A DNA stretch of 64,000 bases from Winogradskyella sp. (GTDB taxonomy: Bacteria > Bacteroidota > Bacteroidia > Flavobacteriales > Flavobacteriaceae): the NCBI RefSeq assembly GCF_013042245.1, contig NZ_JABDQL010000148.1, forward strand, positions 1 to 64,000, written 5' to 3'. Both the position numbers and the translations under genes were made by a program. Below the pieces are notes generated by a model. The model worked only from the letters and a program-made list of their open reading frames with translations. It had not been told where the DNA came from and ran no database searches. Shown here in pieces: positions 53,390-64,000 of this stretch. How positions within the stretch are numbered: position 1 is the stretch's first letter; every line of letters starts with the position of its first letter.

Positions 53390-56300
53390 ATGAAAAAGAG
53401 TCTTTTTTTAATAACAATTACATTTTCAATTTTTTTTGCAAATGCTCAACAGGAAGCTTCTAATTGGCATTTTGGTAGCGGAGCTGGTTTAACATTCGAT
53501 TTGTTTAATGATACTGTTACACCTATTAATTCTGCTGTAAGTACTAATGAAGGCTGCTCAAGTATTTCTGCTGCCAACGACGGAACCGTATTATTTTATA
53601 CGGATGGTCGTAGTGTATGGGATGCTAATAATAATATCATGCCAAATGCAAATTATAATTCAGGAAACGGATTACTTGGTGACCCATCAAGTACCTCATC
53701 CGGTTTAATTATACCAAAGCCTAACGACCCAAATTTATATTATATTTTTACTGTAGATGAACCGCACCATAATAATGCTTGGGCATACCCAACTCAAGGA
53801 CCACAAGATATTAACGGTAATCCAATCAACTTTTATCAAGAAAGTTTTGGTAATGTACCTGCAAGTTCAAATGTTGATGATGGTTTTAATAATGGTTTAA
53901 CATATTCACTTATAGATTTATCATTAAATGGTGGTAATGGAGATGTTGTAGTATCAGAAAAAAATGTACCATTAATAACTTACGATGTCGCAGACTTCAT
54001 TGAGACAAGTTATAAATGTTCTGAAAAAATTACTGCTGTTGCTGCCAATGATTGCGAGTCTATTTGGGTAATAACTCATTTTAGAGACAAATTTTACTCC
54101 TTTAAGATTGATAATAGTGGTGTAAATCCTACACCACAAGTTTCTGAAATTCCGGGAGATATTGATATTGTTACTAATGGATACCGTAGAAATGCTATAG
54201 GCTACATAAAAGCTTCACCAGATGGAAGTAAAATTGCTATTTGTCATAACCAAAACGCCAATGTACCTGGTAATCAAGTAGAGCCATTCACATCAGGAAG
54301 TTTTTGGGTTTACGATTTTGATAACGCCACAGGCATTGTATCTAATGGTGTTGAGCTCTTAACAAACATAAGTACTTATGGCACAGAGTTTTCTTCAGAT
54401 TCTAAAAAAGTTTATGTAAGTGGTAGTAACGCAATTAATCAGTTTGATTTAGACAATAATAATCAACAAACTACTGTATTTACAACTATAGGTGGTTTTC
54501 TTGGCGCCATGCAGTTAGCACCAAATGGTAAAATATACGTTATAAATACATTTAATAATAATTTCTTAGATGTTATTGAAAACCCTAATGAAGTTGGTTT
54601 TGCATGTAACTATAACCAAAACGGACAAGCACTTGCAACTGGAACTAGTGCCAATTTAGGATTACCGCCTTTTATATCGTCATTCTTTGTAGAAAGCATA
54701 GATATTATTCGGGACGATGATTCAGAATCTACCCTATTATCATTATGTAATGGAGATACTTATACATTATTAGCGGACATTCTTCCTAATGCTACTTATA
54801 CATGGACACTAGACGGAAATACGATTGATGATGGAAATGCTAATCCTTTTGATTTTGAAATAGCACCAAATCAAGGTGGTTTATATGAAGTACTCATACA
54901 ACAAAACAATGGAGACTGTAATACCTTTGAAGGACAAGCCTTAGTTACCTTCTACGATATACCTGTAGCTAACAATATAATAGATGTAAATGAATGTGAA
55001 GGCACTACTGACGGTGTTGCTTCTTTTAACTTTACTAATAAAAATCCTGAGGCACTTGGAGCTCAAGATCCCTCAGAATTTTCGGTAGCATATTTTGCTA
55101 ATATTGAAGATGCTAACAATAATGAAAATGAATTAACATTCCCATTTCAAAATACAACTAATCCACAAGAAATTTTTGTGCGTGTCGAAAACAGTAACAA
55201 CTCTAATTGTTATAATATCAATTCTTTCAACATAATAGTCTTTGATACACCGACCGTTTCAAGATTAGATAATATACTTCTCTGCGATACTGAAGATGAT
55301 ACAACTGATGGCATAGTTACTACTGTGTTATCTAATCTTAATTCTGATATTCTTGGTGCAAATCAGCTCGCAGCAGATTTTACAATTACATATTATAGCA
55401 GCCAAGATGATGCAGATAATGTGGCAAATGAATTGCCAGACAATTACCAGAATGTCCCATTTAGCGACGAAGTTTTTGTTCGTATGGTAAATAATAACAA
55501 TACGGATTGCGTCACTATAGATAGTTTTACCCTGACCATCAATTTAACACCAGAAGTTAATGATATTTCACTCTTTCAATGTGACGAAGATGGTATTCCT
55601 GACCGAAGAACAGTTTTCAATATTTTAGAAAAAGAAGACGATATAACAGGAGGAAATCCAGATTTTAATGTTTCCTATTATTTAGATATGAGCGATGCCA
55701 TGACAGAGACAAACCCTATTGATGCTTCAAACTATACTAATATATCTAATCCACAAATAATCATAGCACGCACAACAGACACCATCTCAACTTGCTTTAG
55801 TTTCAGTGAAGTTAATTTAGCTGTTAGTGCTACTACAGCCAATGATGCTTACATTGGCATCTGTGATACAGACGATGCTGAAGATGGTTTTATGGATTTT
55901 GATTTGTCTTTGGCAGATGCACAAGTATTAGATGAGCTTCCAAACGGACTAAATTTAGCATATTACGAAACTCTAGAGGATGCTTTGTTAGAAATTAATC
56001 CGTTAGCTAATAATTATAGAAACACGACAGCTTTTACTCAAATATTATATGTCCGTGTTGAAAATCAAAATAACTGCTACGGTATTAACGAAGTTGAATT
56101 AGAAGTGTTGACCCTGCCTAATGTAGAGACATTTTTTGAAACTTTATACTGTTTAAATGACTTTCCAGAGCCTATAGTGATTAATGGTGGTGTTATTAAC
56201 GACATCCCTAACAATTATTATTATGATTGGTCTACAGGCGAAACAACCATAGAAATCGAGGTCAACGAACCAAACACCTATACCGTCACTGTTTCAAATG

Positions 56301-56830
56301 TCGCTGGCTGCTCTAAGGAGAGAACAGTTGTTGTAAATGCTTCAAACATTGCCACTATACAAGGTATTGAAGTCACGGATGCCTCAGAAAATAATACCAT
56401 TACTGTTTTGTTAGCACCTGGAGAAGGCGATTATGAATTTGCTCTTAATGACCCTAATAGTGTTTATCAAGACAGCAATATATTTGAAAATGTTCGCCCA
56501 GGCATATACACAGTTTTTGTAAGAGACAAAAATGGTTGTGGTATTATAGAAAAAATGGTTTCCGTTGTAGGTTTCCCAAAATTCTTTACACCAAATGGAG
56601 ATGGACAAAACGATTTTTGGCAAGTTAAGGGTATATCTTCTCAATTTCAACAAGACACTATTATTTATATTTTTGATAAATATGGAAAATTAATAAATGA
56701 AATAAGTCCTACTGGTTCTGGTTGGGATGGAACATATAATGGCAATCCAATGCCAAGTAGTGACTATTGGTTTTCTGTAACTCTAGAAGATGGAAGACGT
56801 TTTTCAAGCCATTTTGCTTTGAAGCGCTAA
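53390..56830 (+). CDS. T9SS-secreted surface protein with gliding-type C-terminal domain
   Basis: The 1146-residue protein has a signal peptide (LITITFSIFFANAQ), then a ~400-residue propeller-like N-terminal region (ASNWHFGSGAGLTFD, VLFYTDGRSVWDANN, GYIKASPDGSKIAI, APNGKIYVINTF) that recurs in gliding-associated proteins. Next comes an Ig-like stretch and several ~90-residue repeats beginning NECEGTTDG, LLCDTEDDTTDG, FQCDEDGIPDR and GICDTDDAEDG. The C-terminus (FTPNGDGQNDFWQVKG, IYIFDKYGKLI, GWDGTYNGNPMPSSDYWF) is a type B T9SS sorting domain, which leads to surface attachment or release. The function, probably adhesion, is inferred. Confidence 0.93.
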   Translation: MKKSLFLITITFSIFFANAQQEASNWHFGSGAGLTFDLFNDTVTPINSAVSTNEGCSSISAANDGTVLFYTDGRSVWDANNNIMPNANYNSGNGLLGDPSSTSSGLIIPKPNDPNLYYIFTVDEPHHNNAWAYPTQGPQDINGNPINFYQESFGNVPASSNVDDGFNNGLTYSLIDLSLNGGNGDVVVSEKNVPLITYDVADFIETSYKCSEKITAVAANDCESIWVITHFRDKFYSFKIDNSGVNPTPQVSEIPGDIDIVTNGYRRNAIGYIKASPDGSKIAICHNQNANVPGNQVEPFTSGSFWVYDFDNATGIVSNGVELLTNISTYGTEFSSDSKKVYVSGSNAINQFDLDNNNQQTTVFTTIGGFLGAMQLAPNGKIYVINTFNNNFLDVIENPNEVGFACNYNQNGQALATGTSANLGLPPFISSFFVESIDIIRDDDSESTLLSLCNGDTYTLLADILPNATYTWTLDGNTIDDGNANPFDFEIAPNQGGLYEVLIQQNNGDCNTFEGQALVTFYDIPVANNIIDVNECEGTTDGVASFNFTNKNPEALGAQDPSEFSVAYFANIEDANNNENELTFPFQNTTNPQEIFVRVENSNNSNCYNINSFNIIVFDTPTVSRLDNILLCDTEDDTTDGIVTTVLSNLNSDILGANQLAADFTITYYSSQDDADNVANELPDNYQNVPFSDEVFVRMVNNNNTDCVTIDSFTLTINLTPEVNDISLFQCDEDGIPDRRTVFNILEKEDDITGGNPDFNVSYYLDMSDAMTETNPIDASNYTNISNPQIIIARTTDTISTCFSFSEVNLAVSATTANDAYIGICDTDDAEDGFMDFDLSLADAQVLDELPNGLNLAYYETLEDALLEINPLANNYRNTTAFTQILYVRVENQNNCYGINEVELEVLTLPNVETFFETLYCLNDFPEPIVINGGVINDIPNNYYYDWSTGETTIEIEVNEPNTYTVTVSNVAGCSKERTVVVNASNIATIQGIEVTDASENNTITVLLAPGEGDYEFALNDPNSVYQDSNIFENVRPGIYTVFVRDKNGCGIIEKMVSVVGFPKFFTPNGDGQNDFWQVKGISSQFQQDTIIYIFDKYGKLINEISPTGSGWDGTYNGNPMPSSDYWFSVTLEDGRRFSSHFALKR

Positions 56831-56865
56831 ATAAAATGTAATTTTAGTTTTATAATACTTGTAGG

Positions 56866-58644
56866 TTGAAACTAAGATATATTTATACCATCCTTTTACT
56901 ACTCATTAATTTATTTAGTGGAGCACAGGACATTAGTTTGTTTCAACAATTTAATGGAAGATACGACTATACAGCTATTGGAAACACCTTAAACACTTCT
57001 GAAAACGGTAACTCTTCACCATGTGAAATTCTAACCAGATCTTCTGCCGAACTTCAGCTAGAATCTAATCAAAACATTATTGCCGCTTATTTATATTGGG
57101 CAGGCTCTGGAAATGGCGATTTTGATATTCAACTTAACGGTGAAGATATATCTGCAGAACGTATATTTACAGATGCCCTAGACGACACAAGAGTCTTTTT
57201 TGCTGCATTTTCCGATGTTACAGAAATCATTACAAACCTAGGAAGCACAATCTATACGATTTCAGATTTTGATATAAGTTCAATAATCTCACCTTACTGT
57301 CCTACAGGTACTAACTTTGGCGGCTGGGCGTTAACCGTTGTTTATGAAGATAGTAACCTGCCACTTAATCAACTCAATATTTATGACGGGCTGCAAAGTG
57401 TACCTGAATCGTTATCCATAACACTCGACAACCTGAATGTCTTGGATAATGATAATGCAAAAATTGGCTTTATCGCTTGGGAAGGTGACCGTGCTCTGGC
57501 TGTAAATGAGCAACTCACTATTAATGGAAACCTCATCGGAAATCCACCTTTAAATCCCGTAAGTAATGCTTTTAATGGAACAAATAGCTTCACAGGTGCT
57601 ATCGATTTATTTAACATGGATATTGATGTATATAACATACAAGATAATATAGCCATTGGAGATACTACGGCATCAATAAGTCTAACATCAGGTCAGGATT
57701 TTGTAATGATTAATAATGTTATTACTGTCTTAAATAGTCAATTACCTGACGCCACAATCGCTGTAGAAGAAATTACTCTTACCTGTGATAGCCGAGAAAT
57801 CACACTAAACTACACCACCAATAACGCCAATAGTACAGGTGTTTTACCCCAAAATACACCGATAGCATTTTATGCTGATAATCTTCTCGTCGGCCAATCT
57901 GCTACAAGTACAGATATACCTATTGGAGGTTTTGAAAATGGCACTATTAGTCTTTTTATTCCAGAGAATATTTCAGATGATTTTACGATTTCAGTAATTG
58001 TTGATGATGACGGTAATGGCAACGGAATTATTACAGAAACAAATGAAAACAATAATTTTACCTTCGCAGGTGTTTCACTTTTAATAGTTCCAGAAGTAGT
58101 AACACTTCCTAATTTATTGTCATGTAATTTAGGCTTTGAAACAGGTGAATTTAATCTTTTAGATGCAGTAACTAATTTACAAGAATTTGAAAATCAAAAC
58201 TTTCAGTTTTTTGAGAATCTAGAAGATTTAGGGACAAATACAAATAGTATTAATGACATAGATTCATACAATAATTTAACTCAGCTTCAAACTATATATA
58301 TTCGTCTAGAACAAGAGTTTTGCTATGAAATTTTTAAGTTTAACCTTGAAATTGAAAACTGTCCACCAATAATCCCTGAGGGATTTTCACCTAATAACGA
58401 TAGTAAAAATGATTGGTTTAACATACAAGGACTTTACAGTATTTTTACACTACACGAACTTAAAATTTTTAATCGTTACGGTACACTAATTTTTGAAGGT
58501 GACGACAACAAACCGTGGTTAGGTCTATCAAATAGAGGAATAAACCATGGAGAACGTGTTCCTGTTGGCACGTATTATTATGTCTTAAACCTCAATGATT
58601 ATGATTACCAACCTATTGTTGGTTGGGTATATGTAAATTATTAA
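56866..58644 (+). CDS. T9SS-secreted surface protein with type B sorting domain
   Basis: The 592-residue protein starts at a TTG 35 nt after the previous stop; the signal peptide (YIYTILLLLINLFSGAQD) begins directly, with no nearby ATG alternative. Residues about 20-290 form a domain with IAAYLYWAGSGNGDFDIQLNG, GWALTVVYEDSNLPL and FIAWEGDRALAVNEQLTING, found in other gliding-associated proteins. A CARDB-like region (CDSREITLNYTTN) follows, then one Cys-Asn variant of the repeat module (LLSCNLGFETGEFNLLDA). The end is a type B T9SS sorting domain (PEGFSPNNDSKNDWFNIQG, LKIFNRYGTLIFEG). It precedes the decayed IS element by 3 nt. Confidence 0.9.
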   Translation: MKLRYIYTILLLLINLFSGAQDISLFQQFNGRYDYTAIGNTLNTSENGNSSPCEILTRSSAELQLESNQNIIAAYLYWAGSGNGDFDIQLNGEDISAERIFTDALDDTRVFFAAFSDVTEIITNLGSTIYTISDFDISSIISPYCPTGTNFGGWALTVVYEDSNLPLNQLNIYDGLQSVPESLSITLDNLNVLDNDNAKIGFIAWEGDRALAVNEQLTINGNLIGNPPLNPVSNAFNGTNSFTGAIDLFNMDIDVYNIQDNIAIGDTTASISLTSGQDFVMINNVITVLNSQLPDATIAVEEITLTCDSREITLNYTTNNANSTGVLPQNTPIAFYADNLLVGQSATSTDIPIGGFENGTISLFIPENISDDFTISVIVDDDGNGNGIITETNENNNFTFAGVSLLIVPEVVTLPNLLSCNLGFETGEFNLLDAVTNLQEFENQNFQFFENLEDLGTNTNSINDIDSYNNLTQLQTIYIRLEQEFCYEIFKFNLEIENCPPIIPEGFSPNNDSKNDWFNIQGLYSIFTLHELKIFNRYGTLIFEGDDNKPWLGLSNRGINHGERVPVGTYYYVLNLNDYDYQPIVGWVYVNY

Positions 58645-58646
58645 TT

Positions 58647-58668
58647 AAATATCCGTAATTACATCTAA
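58647..58668 (+). repeat. Left terminal inverted repeat of the IS
   Basis: Begins AAATATCCGT; its reverse complement matches the right end at 19 of 22 positions. The outer ten bases and the inner CTAA are identical. Confidence 0.8.
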
Positions 58669-58706
58669 TTTTGTGTATTTCATTGATTATCATAACACTA
58701 ATAGCT

Positions 58707-59524
58707 ATGAGTGTTTTTAGTTTTACTGCGGAATTTGGAAACGAAGAAGAATGTCGTCTTCATTTTAAGCGAGAAAGAGATACACAAGGCGTATTTTTAA
58801 TTGAGAAATGGTATAACTCCATTTATTCTTTAACCAATAATAGTATCGTCAATGTTTTAAATGAGCGTAACTAAGAAAGGATTTTCCGCCAAAGATATAC
58901 AGCGCCAATTAGGTTTGAAGCGTTATGACCTGTATGGTCTATGGTGCATAAACTACGTAAAGGTATGGGTAAAAGCGGTGAGCGTTACACTCTAGAAGGC
59001 ATGATAGAGATGGATGAAGGTTATTTTACAGTAGCATCAACCGATATAGAAAAATCTCAAGCTCAGCGTGGTCGAGGAGCAGCAGGTGAAAAGAATGTAG
59101 CAGTAATGGCTGAAAGTGTTATTTTAGAAGATATAGAAACTGGTAAGAAATCTAGCCAAGTACCTTACTTTAAGGCTAAGGTATTAAATACACATTCTTC
59201 AGAAGAGATTGATGATACCATTGAAAGCTCATTAGATAAGAGAACTATTGTTTTTTCTGACAAAAGTACTTCCTATGTGGATATATCAGATTATGTAGAA
59301 CTACATGTTACTGAAAAATCTAGTGAGCAAACCACAAAAGAAACTCTCAAATGGGTTCATATTTTTATAAGTAACGCTAAAATAACACTCTTGTGCAATT
59401 ATCATAAAATCAAGGGAAAGTATTTACAGCTCTAGCTAAATGAGTTTGTGTAAAGGTAAACAGACAATATTTTGAAGAAAAACTGTTCGATAGAGTGGTT
59501 ATTGCATCTATAACTGGCATTTGA
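58707..59524 (+). pseudogene. IS1595-family transposase, multiply disrupted
   Basis: From ATG 58707, MSVFSFTAEFGNEEECRLHFK matches the N-terminus of ISXO2-like transposases, but the zinc-ribbon part that should follow is degenerate and the frame ends at 58874. A second segment, KKGFSAKDIQRQLGLKRYD, runs out of frame near 58929 (one base lost) and picks up as MVHKLRKGMGK and LEGMIEMDEGYF, the start of the DDE domain. This runs to VHIFISNAKITLLCNYHKIKGKYLQ and a TAG at 59433-59435. After another lost base near 59454 the text ends QYFEEKLFDRVVIASITGI at 59522-59524. At least three lesions make it inactive. Confidence 0.9.
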
Positions 59525-59525
59525 T

Positions 59526-59547
59526 TTAGGTGTAAAAACGGATATTT
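59526..59547 (-). repeat. Right terminal inverted repeat of the IS
   Basis: Read on the minus strand it begins AAATATCCGT and is the partner of the left repeat. It lies directly after the transposase remnant stop. Confidence 0.8.
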
Positions 59548-59577
59548 TAATTTTAATTGTGTATTTCATCAATAATA

Positions 59578-59608
59578 TTTGCATTTCAACTAAATTTTAA
59601 TACTTTTG
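59578..59608 (+). promoter_or_regulatory. Promoter for the giant surface-protein gene
   Basis: TTTG at 59578-59581 and TACTTTTG at 59601-59608 are both exact matches to the Bacteroidota -33 and -7 boxes, with the preferred 19-nt spacing. The best promoter in the window. It lies outside the IS and leaves a leader of about 60 nt before the ATG at 59677. Confidence 0.75.
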
Positions 59609-59676
59609 TAGATATAAATGTCTAGGACTTGTTTTTATACCAGTATAGATTATTTATTAGAACAGACCCCAAATCT

Positions 59677-62600
59677 ATGTTCAAATCAGAAAATTTTATT
59701 TTATTTATACTCACAGTTTTATTTGTGCAATTTACTTATGCTCAAAAAATTAACGTTGACAATTCTTTATCTGCACAAGCATTAGTAGAGAATTCCTTGC
59801 AAGCTGGTTGTATTGTAATAGACAATATTAGTTCTCAAGTTAATGGAAATTCTATTGGTATTGGAAGTTTTGGTTTTTTTGAAAGAGGAATATCTAATTT
59901 TCCTTTTGAAAATGGAATGGTTTTAACCACAGGAAATGCAACATCGGCAGGAAACGGAGAAAATAATGAAGAATTAAATGAAGGTGAAACATCATGGTCA
60001 ACAGATACAGACTTAGAAACTGCTCTTGGCATTACAGGAACTCTCAATGCGACCTCTATTGAATTCGACTTTACTTCAATTTCTGATGTACTCCAATTCA
60101 AATATATATTAGCATCGGAAGAATATCTTAATAATTTTCCTTGCCAATATTCAGATGGCTTTGCATTTTTAATTCGTGAAGCTAATACTTCTAATCCCTT
60201 TCAAAATATTGCATTAGTACCAGGCACATCTACACCAGTAAATACTACAACCATTAGACCAAATATTGAAGGTTTTTGCGGACCCGTAAACAGTCAATTT
60301 TTTGAAGGTTATAATATTGGAGACACTAATTATAATGGCCGTACAACAGTCTTAACAGCAACGGCAAATATAATTCCAAATGTGGTTTATCACATTAAGC
60401 TTGTTATCGCCGATCAAACGGATAGAAATTACGATTCTGCTGTTTTTATAGAAGCTAACAGCTTTTCACCTGTAGTAGAATTGGGTGATGATTTTTCTAC
60501 CTGTGCTAATAGTGTATCACTTAATGGTGATATTAATAATCCAAATGCAGAGTACGATTGGTATTTAAACGGAGGAGTTATAAATGGGGCTAACCAACCG
60601 ACGTACGAAGCTACTGAAAGCGGTACATATAGCGTAGAAATAAGCATTCCTTTAGGAAATGGCTTTTGTACTGTAGGTGATGAAATTACAATAGATTTAA
60701 GTACTACACAAAGTACTACACCTATGACTAATTATCAACTTTGTGATGACCCAAGTAACGATGGACTAGAAATTTTTAATCTAGACACAAAAAACAACGA
60801 AGTTGTTAATTCTGTTGTACCTGGAAATTACACAGTGACCTACCATACATCGCTTCAAAATGCCGAAAATGGGACCAACCCAATAAGTGGGAGTTTTGAA
60901 AATCAAGTAAGCCCACAAGTTATATATGCACGTATTATTGATAATAACTCTGGTTGCTTAACCATAAATCAATTTCAACTTATAGTAAACCCTAGACCCG
61001 AAGCGATAGAGCCTCCATTAATGGAAGTATGTGATGACGAAGTTATTGATGGTTTTACGACGATTAACTTAAATGAAAATGATGATGCCATAACCAATGG
61101 ACAAGCTAATTTGGTTGTTAGCTACCACATTACAGAATTTGAGGCAAGTAATAATACTAACCCAATTCCGATGCCCTACGTTAACGATAGTCAAACGGAT
61201 ATAGTTTATGCTAGTGTTACAGACCCTAGTACTGGATGTAACTCTACGACAGTGGTAAATATTTCGGTATTAGCACCACCTCCAATTAACAATGCCCAAA
61301 ATTACTATATAGATGCTTGTGACCAAGAATATGATGGTTTTGCAGAATTTGATTTAACGACAGTAGAAGCTGAAATTTTAAACGGACTTACCAACGTAAC
61401 AGTAACTTATCATCTATCTCAAGAAGATGCACTTTCTGGAGAAAACCCGATTCCTAATCCAACAAATTTTTCAAATACTACACAAACTGAGCAAATTATA
61501 TATACAAGAGTTATTGATAATAATACGGGCTGTGCTTCAAATTCTCCTATAGAAATACACCCAAATCTATTATTATCGGCGCCAGATTTTTCGGATTTTC
61601 AACTTTGTGATATAGGAAATGACAATAGTGAAGCCTTCAATCTAGAAAGTATAACTAGTTTTATTTTACAAGATATACCAGATGTAACAATTACCTATTA
61701 TGAAACAGAAGACGATAGAACTAATTCTATAAATCCTATTGACACTAGCGTAAATTACTTTCCCCTTAATTCTCCACAAACTCTATACCTAACCTTAACA
61801 AGCCCCACTTGTACTGAACATGAGGAAATTATTTTATATTTAGAACCTATTGTAGAGTTTCCAGATTTACCACAACAAACCGTATGTGACACAGATCAAG
61901 ATGGAATAAGAAGCTTTAATTTATCAGAATTTGACGAACAGGTTTCTCTAGGTCAACCAGGATATACCGTAACCTATTTTGAAACTCTACAAGATGCCGA
62001 AGATGATATAAATCCATTGTCTGTAATTTATCAAAACACAGTAAATCCTTTTACACTCTATACTAGAATAACATCTGAAATAGCCTCATGTACTGATTTG
62101 TCAAGTTTCGAAATTTTTGTTAATCCAGCACCAGTAACTACAAATGCAAACCCAATTATTATTTGTGATGATGACCAAGACGGATTTTTTACAATAAATC
62201 TCGAAGATAAAATTTCCGAAATCACCAGTACTTTAACAAATATTTCTGTAAGCTTTTTTGAATCTGAAGAAGATGCAATTAGTAATACAAACATGATTAT
62301 TACTAATACCTCTAACTATAATGCAGAAACAGGTACAATTATTGCCAGAGTAGAAAACACATTGACTAGTTGTTTTACGCTTGAAAATATTTCAATAATT
62401 GTAAACACATTGCCTGTATTTCCTGAAATCTCAGAATTTAGATTTTGTGAAAACAATACAGATAACATTGGTGAATTTTTGTTAAGCTCTAAGGATGCAG
62501 AGATTTTAAACGGTCAATCAGGAAAAGAAGTTTTATATTTTCTGACGGCAGAAGATGCTGAGTCTGGTGACAATCCTATAGACAAAGACAATAATTTTGA

Positions 62601-64000
62601 AAATACAGAGAACCCGCAAATCATACATGTCCGGGTTCAAAATATTACGGACACAGATTGTTATGGTATAGATTTCTTTACATTAAATGTGGGTACAAAT
62701 CCAAATTTCAATGAGCCTACAGACATGTTTGTTTGTGACGATGGCTCTAATGATGCTCTTGTGGAAATAAACCTTAATGAAAAAACTGCTGAAATAAGTG
62801 AAGGCATAGCGGAAGATTTAACTGTAACTTACTATAGAAGTTTTGAAGATTTTCAAAATCAAAGTAATCCTATAACTGAAAACACATTTACTAATATTGC
62901 TAATCCTCAGGAAATTTTTGTAACCATAGAAAATGGGACAATTTGTTATTCTAGCGCATCGTTTATTATAAATGTTACACCTGTACCAACAGTATCTACA
63001 ATAGCGCCGTTTGAAGATTGTGATATAGATTACAACGAAAGTATTTTATGGGATTTAACGCAAGCTGAAATTAATATTTTAGACGTTAGACAAGATAATA
63101 TGGTAGTAACATTTTTTACCTCCGAAGAAGATGCCGGTAGCGATACAAATCCTATTTCTGAACCAGAGAATTTTGAAAACACTACAAATCCTCAAACCGT
63201 TTTTATGAAAGTGGTAAATACAGATTTTAACTGTCCTATAGTTTTACCAATAGAACTCAACGTAATTTCACCACCGGTATTTAACGACTTTAGCAGTGTA
63301 AACATTTGTGATAATGACACTAACACTTACGAGATTAGTCAGATTAATAATATCATTGTAAATAACCCAGATAATTTAAATATTACCTATTATACAAATG
63401 AAAATGACGCCATAGCGATTGAAAATGAAATTACTGGCGAGTACAATTACCAAACTAATAACGACATTATATATGCGCGGCTTGAGGATGCAGTAACGGA
63501 GTGCTTCTATATATATCCGTTTATGCTTATAGTTATTGAGTCACCTGTTGCAAACATGCCTGATAATTTAGAAAGCTGTGATGACGACTATGACGAACGA
63601 CTTATTATCGATTTAACCATCCAAACTCCAATAATTATTGGAGCGCAAGATGATACTTTTTTAGAAGTTACCTATCACAACTCTGAGGTAAGTGCTATAA
63701 GTAATACAAACCCGCTTGAGAACCTGTACAATACTACAAACGGTGAAATTATTTTTGCTAGAGTTACCAATACAACTACCCAATGTTTCGAAGTCACACA
63801 GTTTAGTGTTATTATTTACCCATTACCAATAGTTGATATAGGACCCCAAACGATTTGTCCTGAAAATTTTCCACTAAAGGTTGATGCAGATACTGGTTTT
63901 GATGGTGACGAATACTTATGGTCAACTGGTGAACTAACATCAGACATTGAAATTACTGAAATAGGAACATATAGTGTTACCGTTACAACTCCCAATGGAT
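59677..64000 (+). CDS. Giant repetitive surface protein, choice-of-anchor L type (3' end outside window)
   Basis: The frame is open from ATG 59677 to the window edge (more than 1,440 residues), so the C-terminus is not seen. A signal peptide (FILFILTVLFVQFTYAQ) is followed, at about 40-255, by a choice-of-anchor L domain (GIGSFGFFERGISNFPFENGMVL, FKYILASEEYLNNFPCQYSDGFAF). After an Ig-like stretch come eleven consecutive ~95-residue repeats, each starting with a variant of CDDDxDG followed by (I/F)(N/D)L, then VTYYET, DA, NPI, and ending with a Cys (for example GCLTINQF). A different Ig-like unit (LWSTGELTSDIEI) begins at the edge. A T9SS sorting domain is expected further on. Likely an extended surface adhesin stalk. 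Confidence 0.93.
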   Translation, partial: MFKSENFILFILTVLFVQFTYAQKINVDNSLSAQALVENSLQAGCIVIDNISSQVNGNSIGIGSFGFFERGISNFPFENGMVLTTGNATSAGNGENNEELNEGETSWSTDTDLETALGITGTLNATSIEFDFTSISDVLQFKYILASEEYLNNFPCQYSDGFAFLIREANTSNPFQNIALVPGTSTPVNTTTIRPNIEGFCGPVNSQFFEGYNIGDTNYNGRTTVLTATANIIPNVVYHIKLVIADQTDRNYDSAVFIEANSFSPVVELGDDFSTCANSVSLNGDINNPNAEYDWYLNGGVINGANQPTYEATESGTYSVEISIPLGNGFCTVGDEITIDLSTTQSTTPMTNYQLCDDPSNDGLEIFNLDTKNNEVVNSVVPGNYTVTYHTSLQNAENGTNPISGSFENQVSPQVIYARIIDNNSGCLTINQFQLIVNPRPEAIEPPLMEVCDDEVIDGFTTINLNENDDAITNGQANLVVSYHITEFEASNNTNPIPMPYVNDSQTDIVYASVTDPSTGCNSTTVVNISVLAPPPINNAQNYYIDACDQEYDGFAEFDLTTVEAEILNGLTNVTVTYHLSQEDALSGENPIPNPTNFSNTTQTEQIIYTRVIDNNTGCASNSPIEIHPNLLLSAPDFSDFQLCDIGNDNSEAFNLESITSFILQDIPDVTITYYETEDDRTNSINPIDTSVNYFPLNSPQTLYLTLTSPTCTEHEEIILYLEPIVEFPDLPQQTVCDTDQDGIRSFNLSEFDEQVSLGQPGYTVTYFETLQDAEDDINPLSVIYQNTVNPFTLYTRITSEIASCTDLSSFEIFVNPAPVTTNANPIIICDDDQDGFFTINLEDKISEITSTLTNISVSFFESEEDAISNTNMIITNTSNYNAETGTIIARVENTLTSCFTLENISIIVNTLPVFPEISEFRFCENNTDNIGEFLLSSKDAEILNGQSGKEVLYFLTAEDAESGDNPIDKDNNFENTENPQIIHVRVQNITDTDCYGIDFFTLNVGTNPNFNEPTDMFVCDDGSNDALVEINLNEKTAEISEGIAEDLTVTYYRSFEDFQNQSNPITENTFTNIANPQEIFVTIENGTICYSSASFIINVTPVPTVSTIAPFEDCDIDYNESILWDLTQAEINILDVRQDNMVVTFFTSEEDAGSDTNPISEPENFENTTNPQTVFMKVVNTDFNCPIVLPIELNVISPPVFNDFSSVNICDNDTNTYEISQINNIIVNNPDNLNITYYTNENDAIAIENEITGEYNYQTNNDIIYARLEDAVTECFYIYPFMLIVIESPVANMPDNLESCDDDYDERLIIDLTIQTPIIIGAQDDTFLEVTYHNSEVSAISNTNPLENLYNTTNGEIIFARVTNTTTQCFEVTQFSVIIYPLPIVDIGPQTICPENFPLKVDADTGFDGDEYLWSTGELTSDIEITEIGTYSVTVTTPNG

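Follow-up and report, generated by a model that had tools for sequence, protein, structure and literature searches.

The repeat stalks of adhesins in bacteria are generally regarded as variable in length. Among the described systems closest to the one reported here, GhpA of Aureispira sp. CCB-QB1 (grappling hook protein A), which the titles of its PDB entries give as a grappling-hook protein, is a very large surface protein of 5898 aa that carries immunoglobulin (Ig)-like domains. The Pfam family Ig_7 (PF19081, Ig-like domain CHU_C associated) is likewise an Ig-like surface repeat of Bacteroidia with one Cys near either end, and the model NF038133 covers the N-terminal domain of the choice-of-anchor L proteins. 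SprB and other adhesins of Flavobacterium johnsoniae that are type B substrates of the type IX secretion system (T9SS) combine a type B C-terminal signal, repeats and an SprF-like shuttle; SprB has 6497 aa and a number of motif repeats that varies between gliding bacteria (PMC9950754). The DNA analysed in this work is a stretch of 64,000 nucleotides from Winogradskyella sp. (assembly GCF_013042245.1, contig NZ_JABDQL010000148.1, positions 1 to 64,000 of the forward strand), hereafter the window, in which three co-directional genes, P1, P2 and P3, encode proteins sharing a unit of about 95 residues. These proteins, and a fourth relative (P4) past the window, would belong to a known kind, that of T9SS surface proteins built from Ig-like repeats in tandem, and the surprising part is the nearly frozen, position-specific number of their units: P3, unlike SprB, is nearly fixed at 11. 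We consider it probable, with real room for doubt, that P1-P4 represent fixed-length stalks of putative T9SS surface adhesins.

The sequence-only reading of this DNA had proposed that one module recurs about four, one and eleven times in the three adjacent proteins, and cross-searches with profiles returned exactly these numbers. Units were cut following that description, and a hidden Markov model (HMM) built from one protein at a time was run on the others. The model made from the P3 units alone detected four in P1, at independent E values of 9e-15 to 5e-21, and one in P2 (3e-8), and that made from the P1 units alone recovered all 11 units of P3 (E 1e-5 to 1e-18). Of 200 shuffled sequences, half of them made from P1 and half from P2, none matched at E 10. 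All units lie on the plus strand. Those of P1 match the profile at 54953..55249 (Cys536-Cys607), 55241..55549 (Cys632-Cys707), 55538..55834 (Cys731-Cys802) and 55820..56116 (Cys825-Cys896), so numbered that their first Cys stands at residues 536/632/731/825, and the single unit of P2, which begins with Cys-Asn, at 58081..58362 (Cys420-Cys486). In P3 the first Cys stands at 372/468/564/660/753/846/940/1036/1131/1227/1317, and the profile matches of units 1 to 4 are at 60700..60996, 60988..61278, 61276..61572 and 61564..61851, those of units 5 to 8 at 61843..62130, 62122..62412, 62404..62700 and 62692..62985, and those of units 9 to 11 at 62977..63273, 63265..63543 and 63535..63825. The closing Cys stands 65-75 residues after the first. 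The unit was found in 176 of the 199 sampled genomes of the family (Flavobacteriaceae) and in 29 of 295 genomes of the class, nine of these 29 belonging to the same family and including that of the window; this genome has 37 unit matches, contigs C53, C99, C27, C148 and C105 included.

The number of units was followed in P3-class proteins, defined as complete, longer than 1500 aa and with a head at least 45.5% identical, of which 166 distinct ones were collected from genomes of the family (mostly those with full-length matches) and from the best 80 of 335 named loci, a selection that is biased toward 11-unit forms. Eleven units were detected in 148 of these proteins, 10 in eight, 14 in eight and 17 in two; since the eight ten-unit proteins leave room for one unit between units 2 and 4, 156 of the 166 have 11 unit slots. 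The 148 eleven-unit proteins measure 1599-1657 aa (mean 1618, standard deviation (SD) 12), and the length filter dropped only one row, a protein of 1427 aa that also has 11 units. A search of the family with the N-terminus only, made to lessen the selection bias toward 11 units, returned 82 matches at 51% identity or more, 73 of them in open reading frames (ORFs) of 1606-1664 aa. The nine matches of other lengths were ORFs of 504, 688, 1226 and 1783 aa (ended by the contig or by a stop), 1445 aa (9 units), 1897 aa (14 units), 2181 and 2189 aa (17 units) and 2167 aa (only partly read).

Not only the number but also the identity of the units is kept. In a comparison of 135 main copies, one per locus, out of the 148 proteins with eleven units, the best match of a P3 unit in another species was the unit at the same position in 96.9% of cases, as compared with the 9% (1 in 11) expected by chance. 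The P3 sequences have diverged to about 39-55% identity while the unit number held across dozens of genera, and frequent recombination in these genes is unlikely because the units keep their positions, which such recombination would erase. The changes seen involve whole units: tandem paralogues have gained three or six, and one genome has lost two. In all ten of the 14- and 17-unit proteins, units 1-11 are followed once or twice by a block 9-10-11 (one unit assignment is uncertain), unit 9 at 62977..63273 being the counterpart here of the unit that opens this block; nine of the ten adjoin an 11-unit copy and the tenth lies on a short contig. Winogradskyella aurantiaca (L223) has four consecutive P3-type copies with 17, 11, 11 and 11 units. 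P3-like heads also occur in another class (L233, L234, L235, L245 and L246), whose ORFs have 1313-1333 aa and, in all five that were read, 7 units; this constancy we do not count as evidence because the class was chosen by ORF length (about 1330 aa).

The other classes, for which rows were counted without deduplication, have numbers of their own. Of 43 P1 relatives at 40% identity or more, 42 have 4 units, P2 has one unit in 77 of 86 (two units in one), and P4, represented by the P3-head matches outside the P3 class, has two in 67 of 70, being intact at 767-797 aa in 67 relatives. As to gene order, P2 stands directly before P3 in 60 of 71 named loci, P4 is present in 42 of them, and in all 29 stretches that span from the ABC transporter to uvrB, P3 lies between the two. 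The unit numbers thus differ between neighbouring genes, but the differences are old and rarely changed. The P1 head type is in addition used on stalks of several lengths, heads 30-39% identical to it occurring with 1 to 9 units.

Sequence features of P1-P3 agree with export by the T9SS. The three ORFs lie where the sequence-only reading had placed them, and its view of the proteins as secreted was supported: hydrophobic N-termini, putative signals, were recognised by eye, and a type B sorting domain is present in each, TIGR04131 scoring 120 bits in P1 and 41.4 bits in P2 (cut-off 35) and CHU_C scoring 43.1 bits in P3 (cut-off 27, E 4.6e-11). In F. johnsoniae, SprF-like barrels accept the type B signals (PMC12618676; PMC9143113) and are mostly encoded next to the substrate, in 9 of 12 cases; the other three substrates, Fjoh_1123/1720/4934, have, like P3, no adjoining SprF-like gene, and these orphans share one distant shuttle (PMC12618676). 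Since 3 of 12 known substrates lack such a neighbour, its absence does not exclude membership of P1-P4 among the T9SS type B substrates. In the genome of the window, PF11751 was found above its cut-off on contigs C147, C99 and C149, which hold full-length SprF-like genes, and as a fragment on C30. The gene on C147 (L294:9101-10006), with no type B neighbour recognised by eye in the 17 kb read, is a candidate shared shuttle for the orphan substrates P1-P4. It was also tried as a marker of a shared shuttle and set aside, because it was matched in 173 of 199 genomes and its presence is uninformative. On C99 (L296:7295-12973), a protein of 1555 aa with 7 units adjoins an SprF-like gene whose C-terminal tail has a Cys-x-Cys; in F. 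johnsoniae, a Cys pair of this spacing in the tail of SprF is bonded to the gliding-track protein GldK (PMC12635249). The module may serve on track-riding adhesins as well.

Taken with these observations, we hypothesize that a stalk of units would hold an N-terminal head away from the cell, the head being the choice-of-anchor L domain in P3 and P4 and other domains in P1 and P2. The C-terminal end would presumably be held by an SprF/PorP-like barrel encoded elsewhere in the genome, probably that of C147. By class, the number of units is nearly fixed, at 11 in P3, 4 in P1, 1 in P2 and 2 in P4. Divergence of the units predates the split of the sampled genera, and they are neither exchanged nor re-counted freely. 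Selection may keep the stalk at its length or each position in its role, and the rare whole-unit changes are found toward the C terminus of the array, which would be its cell-proximal side. The same domain occurs in several neighbouring proteins, each with a number of its own that has persisted, which makes the question of whether stalk length matters directly testable in marine flavobacteria that are harmless.

Several observations weigh against fixed-length T9SS stalks. Extra units in 10 of the 166 P3-class proteins mean that stalk length is not absolutely fixed, one genome (G013) keeps units 1-9 only, having lost 10-11, and another (G123) has the P3 gene in pieces. A FastTree tree of the N-terminal domain, in which 70 of 198 inner branches are weakly supported and 30 of 67 P4 rows were used, requires 7 changes in unit number inside the P3 class. 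Heads 30-39% identical to that of P1 occur on proteins with 1, 2, 4, 6, 7 or 9 units, no unit was detected in 8 of 86 P2 proteins, and P1 and P2 are absent from some loci (e.g., L182, L195, L212, L222), Gelidibacter being among them. As to anchoring, no SprF-like gene was found on the window's own contig, C10, in a scan that covered the genome of the window; and in F. johnsoniae a fusion carrying one of the orphan signals mostly stayed in place, with movement along the helical track in 3% of cells, although its authors still read the signal as targeting to the gliding machinery (PMC12618676). Finally, the units may each have a separate task, which would explain the constancy without a role for length as such.

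This last point leads to the strongest rival, a multi-site scaffold in which length is irrelevant and each position has its own partner or function, so that units cannot be lost or swapped. The positional identity described above speaks for it, as do a consensus proper to each position, acid-motif patterns specific to position, and a conservation that differs along the array, from a mean of 109 bits at units 3 and 7 to 76 at unit 10. The length of the whole protein is, against this, as constant as the order of the units (SD 12 aa over 148 proteins), and tandem paralogues tolerate added 9-10-11 blocks; a scaffold could accommodate constant length together with added blocks only where these blocks are neutral, and we regard this explanation as a possible but clearly less probable one. 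Comparably tentative is an extension of the fixed-length stalks, in which P1-P4 would form one surface apparatus, the unit numbers 11, 4, 1 and 2 would act as molecular rulers setting the distances from head to outer membrane, and the 14- and 17-unit copies would be longer settings reached through a three-unit block at the base.

The fold of the unit bears on a further alternative. AlphaFold was run on P3 units 5-7 together, with 72 aligned sequences, and on unit 5 singly, with 142, and the models reached a mean pLDDT (predicted local distance difference test) of 94.8 and 91.2, respectively. In the modelled unit, the strand bearing the first Cys is followed by a short strand and a helix, a strand, a second helix, one more short strand and a pair of long ones; both helices are short, and the second Cys immediately precedes the last strand. 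The models are confident, and the unit that they show is a putative Ig-like domain. In the structure comparison of the single unit, eight GhpA entries (PDB 9fly, 9flx, 9flu, 9flp, 9flv, 9g8b, 9fls and 9flw) occupied ranks 1-8 (Z 6.1-6.9, root-mean-square deviation 2.7-2.9, 77-80 of 96 residues aligned, ranges of 82-85 residues on the GhpA side), followed by Fap1 (Z 5.7) and then by dystroglycan and Ig cell-adhesion domains; Z was moderate throughout, below 8, and by the rule of the comparison tool the lower GhpA rows (Z 6.1) are tied with Fap1. Foldseek with the single unit also placed GhpA at ranks 1-3, and with the three-unit model GhpA ranked first (Z 7.8), tied with NCAM (7.5). As values of Z below 8 may reflect a common arrangement only, and a like fold is no proof of descent, we take GhpA, with these ties, as the nearest solved fold to the modelled unit, and make no claim of family membership.

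That the units are a flavobacterial version of the GhpA repeats, belonging to a grappling or prey-contact apparatus as in Aureispira, draws on these rankings and on genome G199 (Bacteroidia; loci L251 and L257), where two proteins that match GhpA by sequence (E 1e-75 and 3e-150) have a modest unit match (E 2e-5 and 5e-5) directly before the GhpA-matching domains, the two kinds of domain thus occurring within one chain. Neither the unit profiles, nor the three-unit profile, nor P3 gave a sequence match to GhpA at E 10, and when the unit was compared by profile with the neighbouring GhpA-like domain of G199, as a candidate relative, the result was weak (probability 7%). Iterative profile searches started from that domain had matches inside units only from round two (0, 27 and 268 by round), drifted into PKD- and SprB-like domains and were not used. 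With the values of Z below 8 and the ties with Fap1 and NCAM, with P3 at 1628 aa against the 5898 aa of GhpA, with units of about 95 residues that have a Cys-Asp start, and with hooks known for the GhpA side only, we judge a shared apparatus improbable. Stalks of variable length that expand and contract by recombination, as the sequence-only reading had suggested, are more improbable still, for although neighbouring classes differ (1, 2, 4 and 11 units), there are paralogues of 14 and 17 units and one gene of 9, and distant P1-like proteins range from 1 to 9 units, the number is nearly constant within a class over dozens of genera, the units keep their positions and whole-unit changes are few.

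Whether the unit corresponds to an already described domain, a question raised in that earlier reading, was addressed by scanning domain libraries, and no significant Pfam family was found. None of the families in Pfam or NCBIfam was matched by more than one of the 16 units of the window. With 142 units, namely these 16 plus samples of 66 from P3 and of 60 from other proteins, no Pfam family occurred in more than three and no NCBIfam family in more than two, the best E being 0.0035 among the matches listed, that is, among the first 25 of 51 Pfam and the first 25 of 41 NCBIfam families. The candidate Ig_7, which has in common with the unit a Cys near either end and, going by the models, a putative Ig-like character, was rejected: it matched 2 of the 142 units at E 1 or less (best E 0.0068) and did not reach its curated cut-off of 27.3 bits, and the comparison of its profile with that of the unit by hhalign gave a probability of 0.3%. 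Among PDB sequences the unit profiles and P3 had no match, and the three-unit profile had only two unrelated ones (E 0.27 and 2.6); PHROGs gave no useful match. Among the papers listed by literature searches, which were general T9SS or unrelated ones, none described the unit domain, none reported an experiment with any of these proteins and none used the term 'choice-of-anchor L'; a search on grappling hooks likewise listed no paper on the structure of GhpA. P3 shares with the NF038133 proteins their N-terminal domain, which P4 heads also resemble through the head of P3, and that model does not cover the units. By sequence, then, the unit is a domain family of about 95 residues without a name in Pfam or NCBIfam, one worth naming that the searched libraries have missed and that is linked by its predicted fold to the grappling-hook protein of Aureispira.

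The Cys residues at either end of the unit had earlier been taken to suggest a disulfide. Both are present in all 1485 P3 units of 135 proteins and in 2633 of 2634 distinct units of all classes with both columns aligned (26 more have a gap), in a collection made with a Cys-favouring profile that may miss a few Cys-less units. The simplest reading is that the two Cys of a unit pair with each other, because P2, with its single unit, also carries them, and we infer that each unit would be closed by one disulfide between its two Cys; the conservation of the pair thus stands as an observation and the bond as a proposal. The companion suggestion that the acidic starts bind Ca may apply to part of the array. 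The strict motif CDxDxDG occurs in 80, 103, 93, 93 and 80 of 135 proteins at P3 positions 3, 5, 6, 9 and 11, and in 0-26 of 135 at the other six; a Ca loop is not common to every unit, since the motif is rare or absent at six positions, and Ca binding may be plausible at 5 of the 11.

Within the window, all on the plus strand, P1 (53390..56830) encodes a putative secreted protein of 1146 aa composed of an N-terminal domain (about residues 1-440), the four Cys-Asp units and the TIGR04131 type B sorting domain at aa 1061-1146; the N-terminal domain, aa 1-440 (53390-54709), had no match in Pfam. P2 (56866..58644) encodes a putative secreted protein of 592 aa with one unit and a CHU_C/TIGR04131 type B sorting domain. 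Between P2 and P3, and outside the module, lies the remnant of an IS1595-type transposase (PF12762; 58941..59435). Unlike this gap, those of six relatives whose loci showed both P2 and P3 hold no ORF of 120 aa or more. The ORF of P3 opens at 59629 and stays open at the window end, the complete protein having 1628 aa; the ATG at 59677, taken as the start in the sequence-only reading, is likelier than 59629, so that P3 covers 59677..64000 in the window and ends at position 64515 of the contig. Its head is the choice-of-anchor L domain NF038133 (aa 53-279 of the ORF opening at 59629, E 3.2e-45), PKD-like and SprB-like segments were judged by eye, units 5 (modelled singly), 6 and 7 are those of the three-unit AlphaFold model, and the CHU_C type B sorting domain at aa 1542-1613 lies past the window end. 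Farther along the contig come the frame-broken P4 and a gene taken by eye for uvrB; P4, with a P3-like head and 2 units, is split into several frames in this genome (contig C10, about 64648-66944; L009:8649-10945), whose assembly has 2.58 Mb and is 86% complete. Among the best 80 of 335 named loci, the nearest named relatives of P3 are from Winogradskyella, with 66-70% identity in the best segment.

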